Assembly: GCA_949300355.1 (NCBI GenBank)
Contig: CASGDY010000003.1
Location: 1 to 36,546 of the forward strand
Direction of reading: 5' to 3'
Length of the DNA: 36,546 bases
Source: an uncultured Brachyspira sp.
Lineage (GTDB): Bacteria; Spirochaetota; Brachyspiria; Brachyspirales; Brachyspiraceae
The notes beneath the pieces were generated by a model. That model saw only the letters and a list, made by a program, of their open reading frames with translations, had not been told where the DNA came from and made no database searches. A program made the translations under genes and the position numbers. Positions 3,286 through 36,546 of this stretch are shown piece by piece (position 1 is the first letter of the stretch; each line of letters opens with the position of its first letter).

Positions 3286-3966
3286 ATGAACAAAATAAAA
3301 AAACTATCATTAGTATTTCTTTTTATATTAGTTTCTAATATAAAAGTATTTGCAGGAAGCGGCTTTGAACTTATGCTTAATGTGCCTTTAGGTGCATCTT
3401 TCGGTATTTTTCAAGGTACAATCACAACTACTACTATCCCAACATATCCATCAACTACAGTAAGCGGAAGTGTTGGTACATCAATAGGATTTGATTCAGG
3501 AGTACAAGCTCAAGTAGGTTATATGCTTGATTTTGGAGGATTTGCAATAAGTCTTTTAGGAGATTTAGGATATAGTTACGATAGCTATAGATTTTCTCTT
3601 TCAGGCAGCAGCCGCGGAATGTATTTACATAGTTTTCAAATAGGTGCTATTCCTAAATTCAATTTCGGAACTTGGGCTTTAGGTATAGGCGGAGGAGTGA
3701 AAATACCATTTGCCGGAACATATGGTTTTGATGATTCATCATATACATACGATTTTAAATCTTCTGAATATGATCCGCCTATTATTGGTTATGTAAAACT
3801 TACAATTGATCAGTATTTCTATATAAATGATTTTCTTGCTATTGGTTTAGGTGCTTATATAGGATATGATATAGGTCTTCAATCTAAAACTGAAGATGCT
3901 AGAGTAGATAGTTTTGATATAGGAATTCAATTGGGATTCAAATTCGGACCTAGACCTGGATATTAA
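3286..3966 (+). CDS. Predicted outer-membrane beta-barrel protein, paralogue 1 of 5
   Basis: This 226-residue protein starts with a signal peptide (MNKIKKLSLVFLFILVSNIK, then VFA and a likely cleavage before GSGFE). The mature part alternates polar and aromatic or hydrophobic residues, as beta-barrels do. Family blocks shared with the four following genes are LNVPLGASFGI, GFDSGVQAQVGY, LGYSYDSY, SFQIGAIPKFNFG, LGIGGGVKIPF, GAYIGYDIGL and a final strand DIGIQLGFKFGPRPGY. The ATG is preceded by AAGGAG. A strong terminator follows at 3991, so this gene is probably transcribed alone. The proteins are shorter than the roughly 39-kDa Brachyspira Vsp proteins and I do not recognise a named family. 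Secretion and barrel fold are inferred; the substrate is unknown. Confidence 0.8.
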   Translation: MNKIKKLSLVFLFILVSNIKVFAGSGFELMLNVPLGASFGIFQGTITTTTIPTYPSTTVSGSVGTSIGFDSGVQAQVGYMLDFGGFAISLLGDLGYSYDSYRFSLSGSSRGMYLHSFQIGAIPKFNFGTWALGIGGGVKIPFAGTYGFDDSSYTYDFKSSEYDPPIIGYVKLTIDQYFYINDFLAIGLGAYIGYDIGLQSKTEDARVDSFDIGIQLGFKFGPRPGY

Positions 3967-3990
3967 TAAATAAAAAATATATATACAATA

Positions 3991-4024
3991 AAAACCTGCA
4001 TATAATCAATATGCAGGTTTTTTT
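3991..4024 (+). terminator. Intrinsic terminator after beta-barrel gene 1
   Basis: AAAACCTGCAT (3991-4001) and ATGCAGGTTTT (4011-4021) form a perfect 11-pair stem with a nine-base loop, and the T run continues to 4024. It lies 25 bases after the stop codon. Confidence 0.88.
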
Positions 4025-4037
4025 ATTAAAATTAAGC

Positions 4038-4066
4038 TTGATATTAAATAATATATTTATTAAAAT
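4038..4066 (+). promoter_or_regulatory. Putative promoter of beta-barrel gene 2
   Basis: TTGATA (4038-4043), a 17-base spacer and TAAAAT (4061-4066). The CTTGATATT context recurs before barrel genes 3 and 5, which supports a real shared promoter. Confidence 0.5.
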
Positions 4067-4095
4067 ATTTTAAAGAAACAGGATTCTAGACTATA

Positions 4096-4830
4096 ATGAA
4101 AAAGATAATAAATATATTATTAATTTTTATACTATCATTTAATATAAAATTATTTGCAGAAAGCGGTTTTGAATCAATATTAAATGTACCTTTAGGAGTA
4201 TCTTTAGGAATATTCAATGGAGAACTTGAATCGATAGGAAGTTCCCCAAAAATAAATACTAAAGCAGGATTTGATTCGGGAATACAAGCTCAAGCAGGCT
4301 ATATAATTTCTTTTGGAAAATTCGGATTAAGTATTTTAGCTGATATAGGATATAGTTATGACAGTTTTAAATATTCATTATATCATAGTGTTTCAGCATT
4401 TGGAGGAAGCGAGGAATATAATATAGAAAATAGTTTGTATCTGCATAGTTTGCAAATCGGGATTATTCCAAAACTTAATTTCGGTGCTTTTTCTCTAGGC
4501 ATAGGCGGAGGAGTGAAAATACCAATTTCCGGAATAAGTGAAATTAAAACTATAAAGACTATAAACATATTTGGAAATTCAATAAAATCAGAGGATAATA
4601 TTAAAAAAAATTATACAAAATCAGACTATTTATCATATGTTATAGGTTATTTTAAATTTACATTTGATTATTCTTTCTTTTTTACAAGTAAATTAGCTTT
4701 CAATGTAGGTGCATATTTTCTATATGATATAGGACTATCGTATAAAGCGGCGGACTTAAATGAAACATATAGAGTAGATAGTTTTGATATAGGTTTTCAG
4801 CTGGGTTTGAGATTTGCCCCTAGATTATGA
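4096..4830 (+). CDS. Predicted outer-membrane beta-barrel protein, paralogue 2 of 5
   Basis: This 244-residue protein has a signal peptide ending near LFA, with mature start ESGFESILNVPLG. It carries all the family blocks: GFDSGIQAQAGY, IGYSYDSF, HSLQIGIIPKLNFG, LGIGGGVKIP, GAYFLYDIGL and the last strand DIGFQLGLRFAPRL. It is closest to paralogue 1 over the central glycine-rich block. It differs from the others mainly in the segments between blocks, where extracellular loops would lie, including a Lys/Ile/Asn-rich insert near residues 155-180. The ATG has only a weak AGGA upstream. Its own putative promoter and the terminator before it suggest independent transcription. The function is unknown. 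Confidence 0.8.
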   Translation: MKKIINILLIFILSFNIKLFAESGFESILNVPLGVSLGIFNGELESIGSSPKINTKAGFDSGIQAQAGYIISFGKFGLSILADIGYSYDSFKYSLYHSVSAFGGSEEYNIENSLYLHSLQIGIIPKLNFGAFSLGIGGGVKIPISGISEIKTIKTINIFGNSIKSEDNIKKNYTKSDYLSYVIGYFKFTFDYSFFFTSKLAFNVGAYFLYDIGLSYKAADLNETYRVDSFDIGFQLGLRFAPRL

Positions 4831-4843
4831 TAACTAATGCAAC

Positions 4844-4872
4844 TTGATATTTTATTTATATTTTAATATACT
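4844..4872 (+). promoter_or_regulatory. Putative promoter of beta-barrel gene 3
   Basis: TTGATA (4844-4849), a 17-base spacer and TATACT (4867-4872). The 65 bases from here to the ATG are nearly repeated before barrel gene 5 (6413-6475), so the promoter and leader were duplicated with the gene. Confidence 0.6.
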
Positions 4873-4902
4873 ATAAAATGTATCTTTTAGGAGATAATTA
4901 TA

Positions 4903-5616
4903 ATGAAAAATATTCCATTGATTATTGCCTTTATACTGCTGGTTAATATAAAATCATTTGCTATAAATAGTTTTGTTGCCATACTTAATGTACCTGTAGG
5001 ATTATCAGTATGCATTGCTGATGGATTAATTTTAGGAGAACCTCTTACTAAAATAGGAGTAAACACTGGAATTAATGCTAAATTAGGATATATGTTTGAT
5101 TTAGGGGAGATCGGAATTACTCCTTTGTTTGAATTTGGATATAGTTATGATACTTATGGAGCAGCTACCTTTTCCGAAACTAAATTTGCCGGAAATCTTA
5201 TAAGACAGTCTTTAAATATGATTTTAATAACACATAGTCTTCAAATGGGAGTTATACCTCAAATTAATATAGGAAATGTTGCAATAGGTCTTGGATTCGG
5301 ACTAAAAATTCCGCTAGCTGCCGAATATGAATATAAAAGAATAGATTCTAGTTACGGCAGCAATAAGGTAGAAGAAAATATAAAAAATAAACTAAATAGA
5401 AAAGATATAGAAAATGCTTACGGCGTCAGTATAATACCATATATAAAACTCAGTTTTGATTACAATCTATTTTTTACAGAAGAATTAGCTGTTACTATAG
5501 GGGCATATTTAGGGTATGATTTCGGACTGCCTACAAAAGAAATATCTCAGAATGTAAGATTAGATGGTTTAGATATAACTGCTCAGATAGGGCTTAAATA
5601 TAACAGTATCTTATAA
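4903..5616 (+). CDS. Predicted outer-membrane beta-barrel protein, paralogue 3 of 5
   Basis: This 237-residue family member begins MKNIPLIIAFILLVNIKSFA, then INSFVAILNVPVGLSV. Conserved blocks are KLGYMFDLGEIGITPL, FGYSYDTYG, THSLQMGVIPQINIG, GLGFGLKIPL, YIKLSFDYNLFF, GAYLGYDFGL and a closing RLDGLDITAQIGLKY strand. It pairs most closely with paralogue 5: both share the AILNVPVGLS and GYMFDxG blocks and a nearly identical 65-base leader. AGGAG stands 8 bases before the ATG. It reads toward paralogue 4 with a 32-base gap and no terminator, so the two are probably cotranscribed. The function is unknown. Confidence 0.8.
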   Translation: MKNIPLIIAFILLVNIKSFAINSFVAILNVPVGLSVCIADGLILGEPLTKIGVNTGINAKLGYMFDLGEIGITPLFEFGYSYDTYGAATFSETKFAGNLIRQSLNMILITHSLQMGVIPQINIGNVAIGLGFGLKIPLAAEYEYKRIDSSYGSNKVEENIKNKLNRKDIENAYGVSIIPYIKLSFDYNLFFTEELAVTIGAYLGYDFGLPTKEISQNVRLDGLDITAQIGLKYNSIL

Positions 5617-5648
5617 AAACTGATAATGTATTTTAGGATTTTGATTCT

Positions 5649-6401
5649 ATGAAAAAAATAAATAATTTTGTATTGATAATTTCCATTTTAATACTTTCAA
5701 ATATTTACGTTTTTGCTGAAAGCGGATTTGAAGCTATAATTGATGTGCCTATAGGTGCTTCTATTACTATGTGTTTTGGTACCCCTGATTTTAATTTAGG
5801 CAATAATAATGTTATTAAGATACAAGAAATAAATGGTAAGGTAAATGCAAGTGCTGGAATAGACGTTAAACTTGGATATTTATTTGATATATATGAGGAT
5901 ATAGGAATAAGTACTTTAGCTGAAATAGGATATAGTTACAATTCTTATACTACAATAATTCATATAAAAGATGAATCAGGAAAACAGCTTGATGATAATA
6001 TAACTAAAAATATAAGAACCCATAGTATAAAAATAGGATTACTGCCTAAATTTAATAAAGGAAATTTTTCTTTAGGTTTAGGTTTTGGAATTAAAGTGCC
6101 TTTATATGCAATTGCGGCAAGAGAAAATTTATATTTTAGTATACCAAACAATTATTATATCAAAAATCAATTCATAGAAAATCTAAATTTTACAGGCATA
6201 AAAGACAATTATGAAACACCTATAATACCTTATATTAAACTTACATTAGATTATTCAATTTTCTTTATTGATGATATAGCTTTAAATATAGGAGCCTATT
6301 TCAATTATGACTTTGGTTTGAAGACTAAAAATACAGATTTTAAACTAGACGGATTGGAGATGGGAATTCAATTAGGATTAAGATTCGCACCTATGTTATA
6401 A
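5649..6401 (+). CDS. Predicted outer-membrane beta-barrel protein, paralogue 4 of 5
   Basis: This 250-residue protein has a signal peptide ending near YVFA and mature start ESGFEAIIDVPIGAS. It keeps the family blocks KLGYLFDI, IGYSYNSY, THSIKIGLLPKFNKG, LGLGFGIKVPL, YIKLTLDYSIFF, GAYFNYDFGL and the last strand LEMGIQLGLRFAPML. It is the most diverged of the five in its first variable segment. Only a weak AGGA precedes the ATG and no promoter is evident in the 32-base gap after gene 3, so it likely depends on the gene 3 promoter. The role is unknown beyond a predicted surface location. Confidence 0.78.
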   Translation: MKKINNFVLIISILILSNIYVFAESGFEAIIDVPIGASITMCFGTPDFNLGNNNVIKIQEINGKVNASAGIDVKLGYLFDIYEDIGISTLAEIGYSYNSYTTIIHIKDESGKQLDDNITKNIRTHSIKIGLLPKFNKGNFSLGLGFGIKVPLYAIAARENLYFSIPNNYYIKNQFIENLNFTGIKDNYETPIIPYIKLTLDYSIFFIDDIALNIGAYFNYDFGLKTKNTDFKLDGLEMGIQLGLRFAPML

Positions 6402-6417
6402 TTAATCTTAATATAAC

Positions 6418-6445
6418 TTGATATTTTTTTATATATTAATATACT
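6418..6445 (+). promoter_or_regulatory. Putative promoter of beta-barrel gene 5
   Basis: TTGATA (6418-6423), a 16-base spacer and TATACT (6440-6445). The sequence to the ATG closely copies the leader of gene 3, including TAGGAGAT and TATAATGAAAA. Confidence 0.6.
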
Positions 6446-6474
6446 ATAGTGTGTATGTGTAGGAGATGATTATA

Positions 6475-7221
6475 ATGAAAAAGATTTTATTAATTATTAT
6501 TTTTATATTATCATTTAATATAAGAACATTTGCTGAAAGCGGCTTTGTAGCTATACTTAATGTGCCTGTCGGATTATCTATAGGTATACCAATTGGAGTT
6601 CATGTAGGAGAAACGCTTAATAAACTAGATGTAAATGCAGACGTTAATACTAAATTAGGATATATGTTTGATTTCGGAAAATTAGGTTTTACGCCATTAT
6701 TAGAATTAGGATATAGCTATGATACTTATGGTTATTCATATTTTCAGCAAGTCAGAATGGATGGAAGTTCTATAAGAGTAAGCTTAAACGAAAGCATCAA
6801 TACTCATAGTATTCAAATCGGACTTATACCGAAATTCAATATAGATAATTTTGCTATAGGACTTGGATTCGGACTTAAAATTCCTTTATATGCAATATAT
6901 TCATATAAAGGTGTAGCACTAGATAATAAAAATGAATATTATATAGAAAGCGGTGAAGAAGGAATGGATACCAAAGATATAGCAAATAAGTATAGAAGAG
7001 TTGTTATTCCATACCTAAAATTAAGTTTTGATTATTATTTTGCTATTACAGAAAAGATAGCAATCGGTGTTGGAACTTATGTGGGATATGATTTCGGCTT
7101 TACTTCAAGGGACTCTAATGAAGAAAGATTAGACAGTTTAGATATATCGCTTCAATTGGGACTTAGATTCGGTCCTGGAATCGAGAAGGAAGAGCTTCCA
7201 AAAATAAAATTTAATTTTTAA
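6475..7221 (+). CDS. Predicted outer-membrane beta-barrel protein, paralogue 5 of 5
   Basis: I place the start at ATG 6475 (248 residues), because the upstream in-frame ATG at 6466 overlaps the ribosome binding site AGGAG at 6461-6465. The protein has a signal peptide (MKKILLIIIFILSFNIRTFA) and the mature start ESGFVAILNVPVGLSIGI. Blocks are KLGYMFDFGKLGFTPL, LGYSYDTYG, THSIQIGLIPKFNI, GLGFGLKIPL, YLKLSFDYYF, GTYVGYDFGF and SLDISLQLGLRFGPG. Unlike the others, it continues past the last strand with a charged tail ending IEKEELPKIKFNF, which could affect insertion if the last strand is the assembly signal. It is the closest relative of paralogue 3. The function is unknown. Confidence 0.8.
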   Translation: MKKILLIIIFILSFNIRTFAESGFVAILNVPVGLSIGIPIGVHVGETLNKLDVNADVNTKLGYMFDFGKLGFTPLLELGYSYDTYGYSYFQQVRMDGSSIRVSLNESINTHSIQIGLIPKFNIDNFAIGLGFGLKIPLYAIYSYKGVALDNKNEYYIESGEEGMDTKDIANKYRRVVIPYLKLSFDYYFAITEKIAIGVGTYVGYDFGFTSRDSNEERLDSLDISLQLGLRFGPGIEKEELPKIKFNF

Positions 7222-9847: not shown

Positions 9848-9936
9848 ATTATTTTATTTTTAAAATATTTTCTCTCTAACTTTATAAAAACAAAACAATA
9901 TAAAATATGTAAAGATTAAAAAACTAAAAAAAGATT

Positions 9937-10021
9937 GGGCGGGTGCTATAATTTCTTATTAAATTAATAAAAAAAATAAATACTAAAACTTCAAAATAAA
10001 GCAGAAAGGATAGAGGGCGGG
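9937..10021 (-). repeat. Composite-element A module alone (paired CCCGCCC boxes)
   Basis: Read on the minus strand, CCCGCCCTCTAT starts at 10021 and ATAGCACCCGCCCAAT ends near 9935. The box-to-box gap is 71 bases, as in the complete elements. No CGCACG module follows on the left. It lies between the divergent ATPase and VWA genes (9848-10088), a gap in which I see no gene. Confidence 0.65.
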
Positions 10022-10088: not shown

Positions 10089-11231
10089 ATGGATAAAGAT
10101 AATATAGATTATAAAAATGCTACAAGATGGCGTTTAATACTTGGAAGTTTCGCTGAAGATAATATAGAACTTGACAGAGAATACTCTGATATGGACAATG
10201 CATTAGGTTTTTTGTATGACAGAGAATACAGCAGAGAGGCCGGATACGCTGATTTTGAAAATGAAAATAAACAAAGAGGCGGAAAGGATAAAAGTGCTTT
10301 AACTGTTCCTACTTGGGTTGCTAAGGTAAAAAAGTTATTTCCCAAAAAAACAGTTGAAATTATGCAAACTCATGCATTAGAAAAATATAATCTTACCGAG
10401 ATGATTACTGATGAGAATATTTTAAAAGAAATGGAGCCTAATATGGAGCTTTTAAAAAATATTCTCACATTCAAAGATATGATGAACGGCAACGTTAAAA
10501 AACTTGCTTATGATATAGTAAGAAAAGTTGTTGATGATATAAAAAAGAAAATGGAAAGCGATATAAAAAAAGTTTTTTATGGAAAAAAACTTCCAAACTC
10601 CGCCACTCAAAATAAAATATTTAAAAATCTTGATGTAAAAAAAACAATAAGAAATAATTTAAAAAACTATAACATAGAAGATAAAACTATTTTCGTAGAT
10701 AAATTATATTTCAATCAAAACATAAAAAAGTATAATCCTTGGCATATAATAATACTTATAGATGAAAGCGGTTCTATGCTTGACTCTGTTATATATTCTG
10801 CAATAATGGCATCTATATTTTCAAACCTTCCATATCTATCAATTAAACTTGTAATATTCGACACTTCCATAGTTGATTTAAGCGACAGTGTAAAAGACCC
10901 AATAGATGTATTATTCAAAGTGCAGCTTGGAGGGGGTACTGATATTGTTATGGCTTTGGAATATGCTAAAAAGATTACAACCATACCTGATAAAACTATA
11001 GTTCTTCTTATAAGCGATTTATATGATAGTAATGATTACAGGCATATGTATAAAAGTGCAAGGGATATAATAGAGGCAAGGTCTAAACTTTTTGTGCTTC
11101 CTGCTTTGGACTATAATGCAGATGCCAGCTATGATAAAGAGGCTGCAAAGCAACTTGCAAAAATAGGTGCTAAAGTTGCAGCTGTTACACCTGATGAGCT
11201 TTCTAAATGGATAAGCACTGTTATATCATAA
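10089..11231 (+). CDS. yehP: YehP-like von Willebrand factor A domain protein
   Basis: This 380-residue protein aligns from memory along its whole length with Escherichia coli YehP (about 378 residues). Shared features are an RWRLILG start, helical middle, ILIDESGSMLDSVIYSAIMA, FDTSIVDLSD, VQLGGGTDIVMALEYA and an LPALD...Y...AAKQLAKIGAKVAAVTPDELSKW end. The MIDAS metal site is complete: DESGS (225-229), Thr in GGGTD (284) and Asp in LISD (310). In E. coli the gene sits with a MoxR-type AAA+ ATPase and a SWIM zinc-finger gene (yehL/yehQ); none is present here, so it is either an orphan or its partners lie elsewhere. No strong ribosome binding site is seen. The molecular function of the family is not known to me. 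Confidence 0.8.
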   Translation: MDKDNIDYKNATRWRLILGSFAEDNIELDREYSDMDNALGFLYDREYSREAGYADFENENKQRGGKDKSALTVPTWVAKVKKLFPKKTVEIMQTHALEKYNLTEMITDENILKEMEPNMELLKNILTFKDMMNGNVKKLAYDIVRKVVDDIKKKMESDIKKVFYGKKLPNSATQNKIFKNLDVKKTIRNNLKNYNIEDKTIFVDKLYFNQNIKKYNPWHIIILIDESGSMLDSVIYSAIMASIFSNLPYLSIKLVIFDTSIVDLSDSVKDPIDVLFKVQLGGGTDIVMALEYAKKITTIPDKTIVLLISDLYDSNDYRHMYKSARDIIEARSKLFVLPALDYNADASYDKEAAKQLAKIGAKVAAVTPDELSKWISTVIS

Positions 11232-11242
11232 AATTTATTTAA

Positions 11243-11440
11243 CGCACGGTGAATAGATTTTTTGTTTATTATTTTAATGAAAATTTTTGATAATAATATA
11301 TTTAAAAATTTTCTCATCGTGCGGTTAATACAGCTTCAAATTTAAATAACACCTGGGTGGGCAGCTAAAAAATTCTAATTTGATAATAAGGAAAATAAAA
11401 AGTTTATATGCAGATAAAATTAAAAAGCCTAAAGGGTGGG
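11243..11440 (-). repeat. Composite intergenic element, complete copy 2 (198 bp, minus orientation)
   Basis: Read on the minus strand the boxes are CCCACCC (11440-11434), CCCACCC (11361-11355), CGCACG (11324-11319) and CGTGCG (11248-11243). Gaps are 72, 30 and 70 bases. Both first boxes carry the same G-to-A change relative to copy 1. The outer CGCACG box starts 11 bases after the yehP stop codon. Together with copy 3 it fills the 459-base gap 11232-11690; I see no gene there. Confidence 0.75.
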
Positions 11441-18154: not shown

Positions 18155-18350
18155 CCCGCCCTTTATGCTCAATAATTTACTTTAAAAATTAAAATATTAA
18201 TTTTCTATTATAGTATTATAAGAAAATATAGCACCCGCCCAAGATTTTATTAAATTTATAGTCAATTCAGCACGCGTTTAGTTGGCTGTGTATTATAGAA
18301 TAATACTTTAATAATAACTGTTTTTAAATATAATATCATATCACCGCGTG
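18155..18350 (+). repeat. Composite intergenic element, complete copy 4 (196 bp)
   Basis: The boxes are CCCGCCC (18155-18161), CCCGCCC (18234-18240), CACGCG (18271-18276) and CGCGTG (18345-18350), with gaps of 72, 30 and 68 bases. The last two boxes differ from the usual CGCACG/CGTGCG at two positions each, yet remain exact reverse complements of one another. The element fills the gap between the chemoreceptor promoter and the ruvB promoter; I see no gene in 18066-18398. Confidence 0.75.
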
Positions 18351-22263: not shown

Positions 22264-22343
22264 CGCACGTTAAGATAAACTAAAAACATAAATAAATTAA
22301 ATTATACAACTTTTACTATATTTAAAAATCTACTCACCGTGCG
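22264..22343. repeat. Composite-element B module alone (CGCACG ... CGTGCG)
   Basis: CGCACG (22264-22269) and CGTGCG (22338-22343) are exact inverted boxes 68 bases apart, with the usual ACTCACCGTGCGG right edge. It begins 10 bases after the methyltransferase stop codon. No CCCGCCC pair is attached at the expected distance on either side. Confidence 0.65.
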
Positions 22344-22346
22344 GTA

Positions 22347-22375
22347 AATATACTGAAAATTTTTAAGTTTGTCAA
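22347..22375 (-). promoter_or_regulatory. Consensus-like minus-strand promoter facing the B module
   Basis: On the minus strand TTGACA (22375-22370), a 17-base spacer and TATATT (22352-22347). The predicted start falls in the CGTGCG/CGCACG box at 22338-22343. No annotated minus-strand gene lies downstream; a transcript would run through the repeat and antisense to the methyltransferase 3' end. Confidence 0.5.
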
Positions 22376-22394
22376 TTTTTTTATTCAACTTTTT

Positions 22395-22665
22395 CCCGCC
22401 GCACGCCACAGGCGGACTTCGTCAAAGCTGCTGCCGCAGGCACGCTTCGCGAAAGTGCAAATATAAAATTAGTGCTAAATCATACTAAAATTGTCTTACA
22501 TGTAAAATAATTTATTACATTTAAGTTTAAATATAGCCTTTCGCGAAGCGTATCCGAGTTTATCGAGGATATAAGCTTCTCGCCGCAGGCGTACTTCGTA
22601 TGCGGCAATACTTAACAGTACTTCCTTCGGCCGCAAAAGAAGTGGGGTGCGGGCAAAGCCCTGCA
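22395..22665. repeat. GC-rich repeat island with inverted repeats
   Basis: This stretch is far richer in G and C than its surroundings. A short motif recurs: AGGCGGACTTCGTCAAAG (from 22410), AGGCACGCTTCGCGAAAG (from 22438) and AGGCGTACTTCGTATGCGG (from 22587). ACGCTTCGCGAAAG (22442-22455) recurs inverted as CTTTCGCGAAGCGT (22538-22551), able to form a 14-pair stem across an 82-base AT-rich loop. Further hairpins are GCCGCA/TGCGGC near 22583-22605 and TGCGGGCAAAGCCCTGCA at 22648-22665. Short minus-strand frames here have no ribosome binding site or recognisable domain, so I treat it as noncoding or a remnant. Confidence 0.55.
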
Positions 22666-22692
22666 AATATTTTAAATTTAAAAAATTTATTT

Positions 22693-22721
22693 TTGACAAA
22701 ATGTAGTTGTTTAGGTATATA
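22693..22721 (+). promoter_or_regulatory. Consensus-like plus-strand promoter facing a partial composite element
   Basis: TTGACA (22693-22698), a 17-base spacer and TATATA (22716-22721). The predicted start is at about 22728, the first base of the CCCGCCC box. There is no plus-strand gene downstream in the gap, so it may drive a noncoding RNA or be fortuitous. Confidence 0.5.
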
Positions 22722-22727
22722 TAGAAA

Positions 22728-22843
22728 CCCGCCCAAGATTTTTTTAATTAAAAAAATATAAACCGCACGTAGAATAAAATTCATATATAATGATTAAGGA
22801 TTATAAAAATACAACAAAAGATTTAAATCGAATTCACCGTGCG
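22728..22843 (+). repeat. Partial composite element (second A box plus complete B module)
   Basis: CCCGCCC (22728-22734), then CGCACG (22764-22769) and CGTGCG (22838-22843), with gaps of 29 and 68 bases that match the complete elements. The first CCCGCCC box, expected near 22650, is missing; the GC-rich island lies there instead. The right edge is 11 bases from the stop codon of the small minus-strand ORF. Confidence 0.68.
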
Positions 22844-22854
22844 TTGAATGAATT

Positions 22855-22947
22855 TTAATTATTATATTTAATGCTATTATATTCATCTATAAGAATTTTA
22901 TAATCTTCTTCACTTATTAATGAAAAATTAAATAAATTACATATCAT
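22855..22947 (-). CDS. Small hypothetical protein (30 residues)
   Basis: A 30-codon frame starts at ATG 22947 and ends in TAA at 22855; the product begins MICNLFNFSLISEEDYKILI and ends with an Asp/Glu/Asn-rich tail. AAAGGA stands about 6 bases before the ATG, a good ribosome binding site, which is the main reason to list it. It follows the flavin reductase-rubredoxin gene on the same strand, with a perfect hairpin between them. A CGCACG repeat box lies just after its stop codon, as with several larger genes here. No domain is recognised; it may be a real small protein or a remnant. Confidence 0.4.
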   Translation of the reverse strand: MICNLFNFSLISEEDYKILIDEYNSIKYNN

Positions 22948-31929: not shown

Positions 31930-32691
31930 ATGAGAATAAATCTTAACTTTGAATTAGAAAGTAATATCATTATTAAAGAATACAGACTTGCCATTATAAG
32001 TTTTATTAAACATGCATTAGAAAATAAATATCCTAATACATACAATGCTCTATATAAAGACAATACAAAAATGAAGGCTTTTACTTTCGGGGTATTCCTT
32101 CCAAATGCCAAAATAAATGATAACAACATAGAAATTTCTAAAACAGATAATAATCAAACATACATTAATATAACTTTCTCTATATTTGATAATGAGCTTT
32201 TTATAGAATTTTATAATTCATTCAACAGCATGATAAATAAAAAATATACATATAATAATTCTATGATTATTGCATTAAGAAAAATAACTATGCTAAATGA
32301 AAAAACTATTAGCAAAAATAGAGTACTAATAAAATTTTTAAGCCCTCTAATACTACGAGATCATAACAGGGAAACTAATAAGGATATTTATTTAACTTTC
32401 AAAGATGAAAATTTTAATTCACTATTAAATCAGTCAGTAGAAAGAATTGCAAAAGAATTCAATTTTGAAAGCTCTGAAATAAAATTAATAACTGTAAAGA
32501 CAACAGATGAAAACGGAAATATTATACAAGAGGAATCAAAAACAACAGTAGTACCGTTCAAAGAAAATTTAATCAGTGCCTCTTTTGGAAAATTCTGTTT
32601 GGAAGGGGACACTACCCTATTAAACAATCTCTACAAAACAGGTATAGGAAGCAGAAGAAGCGATGGTTTCGGACTATTTGAAGTTTTATAA
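31930..32691 (+). CDS. cas6: CRISPR pre-crRNA endoribonuclease Cas6
   Basis: This 253-residue protein ends in the glycine-rich loop of Cas6, GIGSRRSDGFGLFEVL (residues 238-253), and has a histidine near the N-terminus (SFIKHALENKYP) that could be catalytic, as in other Cas6 enzymes. The two ferredoxin-like halves are consistent with the length. Cas6 cuts the CRISPR transcript within repeats and often keeps hold of the crRNA 5' or 3' handle. It is first in the operon, 26 bases before cas8. The family is clear from the C-terminal loop and context; the catalytic residues are assigned by position only. Confidence 0.88.
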   Translation: MRINLNFELESNIIIKEYRLAIISFIKHALENKYPNTYNALYKDNTKMKAFTFGVFLPNAKINDNNIEISKTDNNQTYINITFSIFDNELFIEFYNSFNSMINKKYTYNNSMIIALRKITMLNEKTISKNRVLIKFLSPLILRDHNRETNKDIYLTFKDENFNSLLNQSVERIAKEFNFESSEIKLITVKTTDENGNIIQEESKTTVVPFKENLISASFGKFCLEGDTTLLNNLYKTGIGSRRSDGFGLFEVL

Positions 32692-32717: not shown

Positions 32718-34460
32718 ATGACAAAAACAAAAAAATCTAGTCAGCATGAATTAAATTTAGAAGATAATCAAAACAATAACCTTGAAGAAGAATATTTGGA
32801 AATTAATCTTGACACTTTTCTTTTTAATGCTGGAGTTATAGGGTTTATAGAAGTTTTGGAAGAAGCAAAGGCATCAAAAGGCGAAAGTTTAGAAGATAGA
32901 AAAGATTTTTATTATGAAGGGCAAACATTATATGTTAATAAACAATTTTTATTAAATTTAGATTTTTCAAAATACTATTTAAAAACTGTATACAATAAAT
33001 TTTATAAAAATACTACTTTATATCAAATATTAAATACAAATAAAAAAGATTCAGAAAGTATAAAAAAATATAATAGTTTCCTAAAAAGGAAAACTTTAAT
33101 TACTATAGCTGATACATTAAAAGATAATAAAATAAAAGAATTATTATCTAATTATCAAGACAATAAAGATAATAAAGAAATTAATTTTAAAGAAATAGTT
33201 TTATATATAAATAATAATGAAAAATTAAAATATTATTTATATATTGCTAATATATTTTATGATAAATTTAGCCTAATATTTTATAATATGTATTTTTTAA
33301 AATATAGTTCAAGGCAAAAAACTCATAAAATAGAAGAAAATATTGATTTATATAAATCTATCAATAATAATTTTAATTTAACTAAGAAATATATAATTGA
33401 ATATGGAAAGAATAATTTACAAAAAAACAAATGCATTATTTGTGAATCAAAAATAAAAAAAGAATTGAATATGAATTTTCTATTTGAAATAGGAGTAGAT
33501 CCAAATAAAAAACAATCTGCTTACTGGAATTTACAATCTGATATGTTTATATGCCATATTTGCTATATGATATATTCTTGCACTCCTCTGGGGTTTATAG
33601 ACATGTCTAATTTAATGCTTTTTGTTAATCAAAATGACAGCATAGAAACTTTAATAAATATGAATGAAAAAATAGATTTTATAAATAATGAAGATAATAA
33701 AACATACACGGTATACAATGAAATAATTAGAAGAATACTTGCAGAAAAGACTAAAGAGTTAAAATCTATTCAGGTTATAGTAAGAGATAAGAATCACTAT
33801 TTATTTAACACTATAGGAAAAGATTCTCTTCAAATTATTGAGTCAAGAAAAAAAGAATTAAAAAACATATCAAAAATAAAATCTGTGAAAATTACAGATG
33901 CTTATTGGATTGATGTTTATAAAGAATGCTTAGAAAATATTTTTAATTTTAGAAATCAATGGAACTTAATATTTAAACTTCTAAAAATAGAAGATAATAA
34001 ATTTATATTAAATACAATATTCAATATACTAAAAATACAAATAGCAAAAAATACTATATTTTTAAATAATAAAACTTTAAAGGAGGATAATAATATGCAA
34101 AAACAATTTGATTTAGCATACATAGCCTATAAAAGCGGCAATGAAATAAGAGCTAAATTAATTGGGGCAAACAGCAGTGCCAATTTAAATAGCGAACAAA
34201 ATAAAGAAGCTGATAATAAATTGAGAGGTTTAGTATATCAGCTAATAAATTATGTTCATACTTCAAATAGAGATTTATTTTTAAGCAATATCACAAGGCT
34301 TTATGCAGGAATGAATTTGAGCATACCAAGTATATTTCTAAATATTTTTAAAAGCGATGATGAGTTTAAAGTAATAGGAAATGCTTATATACTTGGACTT
34401 AAAGGTTCATTCTATGATGATGACAGCAGCAAAAATAATAACGATAAAAAAGATAATTAA
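32718..34460 (+). CDS. cas8: Type I-B CRISPR large subunit Cas8 (Cst1-like, CXXC-CXXC family)
   Basis: This 580-residue protein sits in the position of the Cascade large subunit. It contains CIIC (residues 239-242) and CHIC (279-282), the paired CXXC motifs of the Cst1/Cas8a1 family; these may bind zinc. An LDTFLFNAGVIGFIEVLEEA start is also Cst1-like. The large subunit recognises the PAM and recruits Cas3. The gene is preceded by AAGGA. Near its 3' end, AAAGGAGGAT precedes an in-frame ATG at residue 460, probably the start of a separate Cas11 small subunit. The low-complexity Asn/Lys/Asp tail is typical of this AT-rich genome. Overall divergence between Cas8 families is high, so the subtype rests on the CXXC pairs and neighbours. 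Confidence 0.85.
   Translation: MTKTKKSSQHELNLEDNQNNNLEEEYLEINLDTFLFNAGVIGFIEVLEEAKASKGESLEDRKDFYYEGQTLYVNKQFLLNLDFSKYYLKTVYNKFYKNTTLYQILNTNKKDSESIKKYNSFLKRKTLITIADTLKDNKIKELLSNYQDNKDNKEINFKEIVLYINNNEKLKYYLYIANIFYDKFSLIFYNMYFLKYSSRQKTHKIEENIDLYKSINNNFNLTKKYIIEYGKNNLQKNKCIICESKIKKELNMNFLFEIGVDPNKKQSAYWNLQSDMFICHICYMIYSCTPLGFIDMSNLMLFVNQNDSIETLINMNEKIDFINNEDNKTYTVYNEIIRRILAEKTKELKSIQVIVRDKNHYLFNTIGKDSLQIIESRKKELKNISKIKSVKITDAYWIDVYKECLENIFNFRNQWNLIFKLLKIEDNKFILNTIFNILKIQIAKNTIFLNNKTLKEDNNMQKQFDLAYIAYKSGNEIRAKLIGANSSANLNSEQNKEADNKLRGLVYQLINYVHTSNRDLFLSNITRLYAGMNLSIPSIFLNIFKSDDEFKVIGNAYILGLKGSFYDDDSSKNNNDKKDN
34095..34460 (+). CDS. cas11: Predicted Cascade small subunit Cas11, from an internal start within cas8
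   Basis: An in-frame ATG at 34095 lies 8 bases after AGGAGG (34081-34086), within AAAGGAGGAT, the strongest ribosome binding site in the operon. Translation from there gives a 121-residue protein beginning MQKQFDLAYIAYKSGNEIRA. It is mostly helical, with LRGLVYQLINYVHTSNRD and an acidic, Asn-rich tail, and its size fits Cas11. Internal translation of Cas11 from the large-subunit gene has been shown experimentally for type I-B, I-C and I-D systems (McBride and colleagues). Here the site and frame are seen directly; expression is inferred. The same residues also form the C-terminal helical domain of Cas8. Confidence 0.72.
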   Translation: MQKQFDLAYIAYKSGNEIRAKLIGANSSANLNSEQNKEADNKLRGLVYQLINYVHTSNRDLFLSNITRLYAGMNLSIPSIFLNIFKSDDEFKVIGNAYILGLKGSFYDDDSSKNNNDKKDN

Positions 34461-34482: not shown

Positions 34483-36108
<1,626 letters not shown>

Positions 36109-36109
<1 letters not shown>

Positions 36110-36546
36110 TGGAAAAAGAAAATTTTTTAGCGAAAAGCAATAAATATAATGATTCATATCATACAGAAAGCATTGAAAAACATACTGAAAATCTTATAAA
36201 ATTATTTGAAGATTTTAAAAGTATGTATGAAAAATATTTTAATGAAAAAGAATTAGAGCTTATAAAAATAGCATGCGAAACTCATGACTTGGGAAAGATG
36301 AATTATAAATTTCAAAAGAAAATTTATAAAAGTATAAATCAAAATTTTGAAATTAATAATGATTTAGAGAAATTATATAAAGAGCTAAACATTGAAGAAA
36401 TTCCGCATGGTATTTTAAGCTGTGCTTTTTTGAATATTAATGAATTAGAAGAAAAATTTTCAGAAGATGAAATAAAAGCATTATCAAGTGCAGTTTATAA
36501 TCATCATACAAGAAAAGCTTTAAATAATAATGGTTTAGAAATAAGT
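36109..36546 (+). CDS. cas3: CRISPR helicase-nuclease Cas3, HD-domain part, 3' end beyond the window
   Basis: The first 146 codons are present, starting at ATG 36109 in the TAATG overlap with cas5. The HD nuclease domain is recognisable: HTENLIKLF with H25, the HD pair in ETHDLGKMNYKFQ (H59, D60), IPHGILSC and VYNHHTRKA, which supply metal ligands. Cas3 is recruited by Cascade to the displaced strand and degrades it. Whether the helicase is fused, as in most type I-B Cas3 proteins, cannot be seen. The cas1, cas2 and cas4 genes and the array would lie to the right if present. Confidence 0.88.

Follow-up and report, generated by a model that had tools for sequence, protein, structure and literature searches.

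A predicted internal start for Cas11b within the Cst1-like cas8 gene of a Brachyspira type I-B CRISPR-Cas operon

Type I-B systems of the Cst1 kind are found in Clostridia, Listeria, Aquificota and spirochaetes; no small-subunit gene is listed in their operons. Where a small subunit might be encoded is the question raised by a 36,546-nt stretch of DNA from an uncultured Brachyspira sp. (the whole of which is hereafter called the window), whose 3' end carries a type I-B operon in the order cas6-cas8-cas7-cas5-cas3. The initial annotation of this DNA had proposed that Cas11 is translated separately from a start inside cas8. The analysis described here indicates that cas8 is very probably dual-coding in one frame, specifying Cas8b and, from an internal start, a predicted free Cas11b. 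If Cas11b is indeed made from within cas8, it must be kept or provided whenever these systems are reconstituted, deleted or used heterologously, and the internal start could be annotated by a simple rule, namely a Shine-Dalgarno (SD) sequence plus a start codon at the aligned linker.

The operon and its large subunit

All genes of the operon are read from the forward strand. The 253-aa product of cas6 (31930..32691) matches TIGR01877 (2e-23) and the Cas6b profile PDLC01783 (3e-62), and the gene for the large subunit, cas8b (32718..34460, 580 codons), is recognized by PF09706 (6e-8) and by the Cas8b profile PDLC02050 (2e-81). Downstream, cas7 of the Cst2/DevR family (34483..35376, 297 aa; TIGR02585, 2e-68) is preceded by its own SD, AAGGAGA, and cas5b (35369..36109) reaches 1.7e-26 with TIGR01895, slightly under the cut-off of that model. 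The listed open reading frame (ORF) of cas5b begins at 35339; the ATG at 35369 has a better SD and agrees with the start of the 246-aa protein of a relative. The HD part of cas3 (36109..36546; TIGR01596, 3e-18) continues past the contig end. The operon of a complete related genome goes on with a full-length cas3 and then putative cas4 and cas1 ORFs, the CRISPR array comprises at least 44 repeats of ATTTCTAATCTAACCATACTGGAATGTAAA, and the interval between cas8 and cas7 holds no additional gene. A separate cas11b is present neither in the window's operon nor in the complete operon of the related genome G010. A search with the profile PDLC01193 likewise gave no stand-alone cas11b in G010 or in the window's own genome (G000, 85% complete), and it detected stand-alone copies in G038 and G063.

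Elsewhere in the window, a tandem array of five paralogous ORFs, each 226-251 aa long (3286-7221; repeat families D1-D7), resembles a surface-protein family. Short intergenic repeats with a ACCGTGCG core, direct as well as inverted (D15, I24), lie at 11229-11330 and 22314-22857, and a dispersed intergenic repeat, TATAGCACCCGCCCAAG, is found in both orientations at 416-474, 9914-9996 and 18181-18263 (D11, I1, I2).

The large subunit had been labelled Cst1-type, a designation that holds for close Brachyspira relatives and that the window protein itself misses. The protein carries a CxxC...CxxC zinc motif in which cysteines C239, C242, C279 and C282 are invariant, and scores 33.0 bits against PF09706 (Cas_CXXC_CXXC; cut-off 21), and it gives no match at E 0.1 to TIGR01908, the model for Cst1, the Cas8 of type I-B Tneap. 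The same model is passed by its Brachyspira relatives in G008 and G019, 64-66% identical, with 27-28 bits against a cut-off of 19.4, and by L010 with 31 bits. The operon partners, a Cst2/DevR Cas7 (TIGR02585) and a Cas5t (TIGR01895), fit what is expected of a Cst1 system. Because the zinc motif and the partners fit, the protein's own TIGR01908 score fails and relatives at 64-66% identity pass, the window protein is, as judged from its sequence, best described as a Cst1-like Cas8b.

The gene itself (32718-34460) has a mosaic character. Residues 61-235 are like those of one Brachyspira group (59-86% vs 23-44% identity) and residues 301-580 like those of the other (73-98% vs 50-59%), a pattern that points to recombination in cas8 near residues 236-300.

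The internal start and its conservation

Inside cas8, on the forward strand, an SD of sequence AAAGGAGG occupies 34079..34086, as part of AAAGGAGGAT (34079-34088), and its GGAGG (34082-34086) is separated by an 8-nt spacer from an ATG at 34095-34097. Since (34095-32718)/3 = 459, this ATG is the in-frame codon 460 of the 580-codon gene, and the predicted cas11b frame (34095..34460) runs from it to the stop common with cas8, giving 121 aa. Against the anti-SD CACCUCCUUU, the SD pairs with a computed energy of -11.7 kcal/mol; the anti-SD is the assumed standard one because the exact pattern of the canonical 16S 3' end finds no match in the draft genome. The corresponding values are -4.9 for cas6, -5.1 for cas8, -8.2 for cas7, -4.0 for cas3 and -4.3 at best for cas5. 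Thus, the SD 8 nt before an in-frame ATG at residue 460, the product of 121 residues and the superiority of this SD over those of the operon's own genes (-11.7 vs -4.0 to -8.2 kcal/mol) all proved to be as the initial annotation had read them. Among all 1285 ATGs of the window, on both strands, the one at 34095 has the top SD pairing, and the RNA round the site is unstructured (-0.1 kcal/mol over 51 nt).

Relatives were collected by a profile of the Brachyspira proteins and by TIGR01908, the latter being searched in the class of Defluviitalea (Clostridia), in Aquificota, the phylum to which a Hydrogenothermaceae genome belongs, and in Spirochaetota. Of the 76 distinct proteins obtained, 73 reach the C-terminal domain, among them that of L009, which ends at a contig edge just past the start. 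This set of Brachyspira and Cst1-family genes spans Spirochaetota, Bacillota, Aquificota and an Elusimicrobia MAG, and forms 38 clusters at 60% identity and 13 at 40%. Conservation had been set beforehand as the test able to refute the internal start, and it came out the opposite way: at the aligned position, 73/73 genes keep an in-frame start preceded by a good SD, a count over sequences related by descent in which, of the starts within 14 residues, the best one was taken. Sixty-two of these starts fall in the exact alignment column and the other 11 within 3 residues, their SDs pair at -6.4 to -14.8 kcal/mol (median -10.7), and the complete internal products measure 99-129 aa. The chance background was taken from the window's ATGs and from the other internal ATGs of the homologous genes; an SD reaching -8.8 kcal/mol is present at 70/73 aligned sites vs 2/537 other internal ATGs of the same genes.

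Some genes carry GTG (L085) or TTG (Acetoanaerobium noterae) in place of ATG, which argues that the start, rather than methionine itself, is what is conserved. The Listeria monocytogenes gene has an internal SD of -9.9 kcal/mol and a product of 107 aa, and that of Lactobacillus intestinalis a weaker SD (-5.9) at the same position. Within Brachyspira, a homologue was found in 10 of 26 genomes, the window's own counted, and every homologue that reaches the region keeps the site, the peptide preceding it varying in both length and sequence.

Several loci deserve separate mention. In Brachyspira sp. G79 (L053 and L018), a frameshift close to codon 155 breaks cas8 and the ORF of cas3 is shortened, but the internal SD-ATG is undamaged and so is the Cas11 frame. 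At positions 2195-2600 of L119 (G079, Spirochaetota), the cas8 frame stops at the internal start, where AGAAGGAGGTAGAAGATTATG is present, and the sequence for the Cas11 domain continues in other frames, with two shifts, as in a decaying gene, an assembly error or a split in progress. Genome G003 holds two cas8 copies that belong to one family and have diverged (L010 and L013), each with an internal start; their contigs are the same as L023 and L024 of Brachyspira catarrhinii.

The C-terminal domain and its relation to Cas11b

The product had been expected to be helical, and the AlphaFold2 model of the 121 residues bears this out, with five helices, a confident core and a mean pLDDT of 81.5. 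In the AlphaFold2 model of the whole Cas8, a helix belonging to the body covers residues 428-450 and the next one, which opens the C-terminal domain, starts at 458; the internal start therefore coincides with a domain boundary. The linker between them, residues 451-459 (34068..34094, + strand), differs in length among Brachyspira species, as seen from indels in the alignment. Comparison with known Cas11 structures gave a divided answer: the helical bundle was recovered, and Foldseek matched the model to no solved Cas11 in the PDB at E <= 0.001. This negative has little power because the Cas8 model too found no significant solved Cas8. Neither the window's Cas8 nor the alignments of Cas8 and of Cas11 retrieved anything relevant from the PDB sequences, and Pfam and NCBIfam hold no model for the C-terminal domain.

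The assignment to Cas11b comes instead from profile homology. The window's 121 aa match the PADLOC Cas11b profiles weakly (E 0.02), so the identity rests on the family. The Cas8 C-terminus of the Aquificota locus L035 matches PDLC01193 (4e-10) and PDLC01190 (7e-8), and further relatives reach 8e-4 (G042) and, with PDLC01541, 9e-4 (L021). Six sister loci have a short Cst1-like cas8 (350-445 codons) without the C-terminal domain and, between cas8 and cas7, a separate ORF of 174-212 codons, whose ATG, with its own SD, lies in several of them at or just within the end of cas8. These stand-alone ORFs are at L038 1513-2049, L127 2147-2647, L036 4804-5358, L037 4675-5247 and L124/L125. Those of L038, L127 and L036 are called Cas11b by PADLOC (E down to 2e-53) and are left unnamed by the Pfam and NCBIfam models. 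When the internal domain was aligned to the stand-alone proteins, hhalign returned 96.4% with a score of 59.4, vs at most 19.8 in 200 column shuffles. Taken together, the profile homology and the stand-alone cas11b genes of sister systems support the proposal that the internal product is a Cas11, as far as sequence comparison can tell.

Competing readings, mechanism and known systems

The SD-like string could be an incidental by-product of conservation in the linker peptide, the domain existing only within Cas8 and no free Cas11 being made. Such a reading agrees with an earlier account in which the helices at the C-terminus of Cas8b are a small subunit fused to it (Makarova 2011, PMC3150331), and with the many lineages that encode the motif by Gly-Gly, for which GGA-GGN yields an SD almost automatically; in most lineages of this kind the synonymous-codon null, built on each gene's own codon usage, is not significant. 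Over the whole set 21 of the 73 genes fall below 0.05, and the pooled test is driven mainly by few lineages. Against it, the linker peptide is unconserved, Met460 is nearly invariant in the alignment next to a linker of variable length, and GTG or TTG is accepted as the start. The SD core occurs across the three codon phases (39/27/5), and the peptides that encode it differ (LKED, KGGE, FQEV, LRGL, GGSEA and others). Brachyspira retains the SD-forming AAG GAG where AAA GAA gives the same peptide, with p <= 0.013 in 9/11 genes. The other two, distant copies (29% identical) that share one genome, give p = 0.28 and 0.62 and place AGGAG in another phase, AAA GGA G.. vs AAG GAG G... In the Brachyspira clade, the site is under selection beyond that on the amino-acid sequence. 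Given also that the domain is a separate gene in sister systems, we consider the by-product reading highly unlikely.

Pausing of ribosomes by SD sequences has been proposed in bacteria, and the internal SD, which sits at the linker between the body of Cas8 and the C-terminal domain, might slow elongating ribosomes there for co-translational folding, with no initiation. Pausing needs no start codon at the spacing used for initiation, yet one is kept 4-11 nt 3' of the SD in almost all genes, and among the readings weighed here this has the slimmest chance of being right. It might also be that a free C-terminal protein is made and is not a Cascade subunit, being for example a regulator or an inhibitor. 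The lack of a Foldseek match to Cas11 is compatible with this, as is the finding that Haloferax transcripts are more widely altered without Cas11b (PMC11899642). The homology to Cas11b profiles, the separate cas11b genes between cas8 and cas7 and an operon devoid of any other small subunit speak for a Cascade component, which leaves the regulator or inhibitor a very slim chance.

Under dual coding, initiation at 32718 would give the 580-aa Cas8b, whose C-terminus is the small-subunit domain, and initiation at the ATG at 34095 by way of the SD at 34079-34086 would release a free 121-aa Cas11b. That this protein is made, in what stoichiometry and where it sits within the complex is what we infer. 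By analogy with the solved I-B Cascade of Synechocystis, the belly of the complex may be lined by a single Cas8b together with about three copies of free Cas11b, which would hold the non-target strand. An excess of Cas11b would follow from the internal SD being strong and that of cas8 weak; in Brachyspira the internal SD and the cas7 SD are each stronger than that of cas8, an order that would fit the Synechocystis subunit ratios. A broader proposal is that dual coding of the two subunits occurs in every member of the Cst1 branch, is obligate there, and represents one stage in a cycle by which the gene for the small subunit is fused and split again. The same SD-ATG would, in sister lineages, now start a separate cas11b overlapping the end of a shortened cas8, and the SDs, strong for cas11 and cas7 and weak for cas8, would set the Cascade ratio at translation. 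This extension is offered tentatively, at somewhat less than an even chance.

Several experimentally studied systems offer a comparison. In Synechocystis sp. PCC 6714, cas8b contains, close to its 3' end, an internal ribosome binding site (RBS) from which Cas11b is made (McBride 2020, cited in PMC11096372), and the I-B complex contains one Cas8b, seven Cas7 and three Cas11 (PMC11096372; PDB 8H67), where the free Cas11 copies, identical in sequence to the C-terminus of Cas8, hold the non-target strand (PMC11096372). The product predicted for the window resembles it in the internal RBS, the identity with the Cas8b C-terminus, the helical bundle and a mass under 15 kDa. The Synechocystis protein belongs to the Cmx8/Cas8b3 branch, the window's Cas8 found no match to it among PDB sequences, and expression is shown there and predicted for the window. 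In Haloferax volcanii, mutating an internal Met of cas8b abolishes Cas11b (PMC11899642); this Met is likewise in frame, with an SD-like GGATG 5' of it, whereas that Cas8b is archaeal and its Cas11b, at 28.9 kDa, is much larger than the window's 121 aa.

The I-B1 system of Thermotoga maritima has a predicted internal start in cas8b1 for a small Cas11 of 15.1 kDa, a start that was not functional in E. coli (PMC13199841, 2026). Without Cas11, Cas8 fails to purify with the complex, and Cas11 is needed for assembly (PMC13199841). The Cas8 is of the TM1802 family and native use of the start is a prediction. By analogy, the failure of this start in E. coli would count against our reading of the window, though for a different Cas8b family. 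The idea that the T. maritima prediction already covers the Cst1 branch was considered and rejected, since the control genome matches TIGR02556, not TIGR01908. The stand-alone Cas11b proteins (PDLC01190, PDLC01193) are homologous to the internal product over the last ~70-100 residues; they differ in having their own gene beside a short cas8, a length of ~170-190 aa and an extra N-terminal part. Cas11c (I-C) and Cas11d (I-D) go with other large-subunit families.

No report of internal Cas11 in the Cst1 branch was found in the papers searched, and McBride 2020 may list Cst1-type genes. A search for Cst1 and Cas11 together in one paper gave only Makarova 2011, and the extra C-terminal helices of Cas8b were there taken for a hidden small subunit (Makarova and others, PMC3150331). 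Translation of Cas11 from an internal start is described as a conserved feature of I-B, I-C and I-D (PMC10212523, citing McBride 2020). Because it is established in other type I systems, what the window would contribute is a new branch, not a new mechanism: a strong prediction and a modest surprise, by which Cst1 would join the other I-B, I-C and I-D systems in which the mechanism is known.
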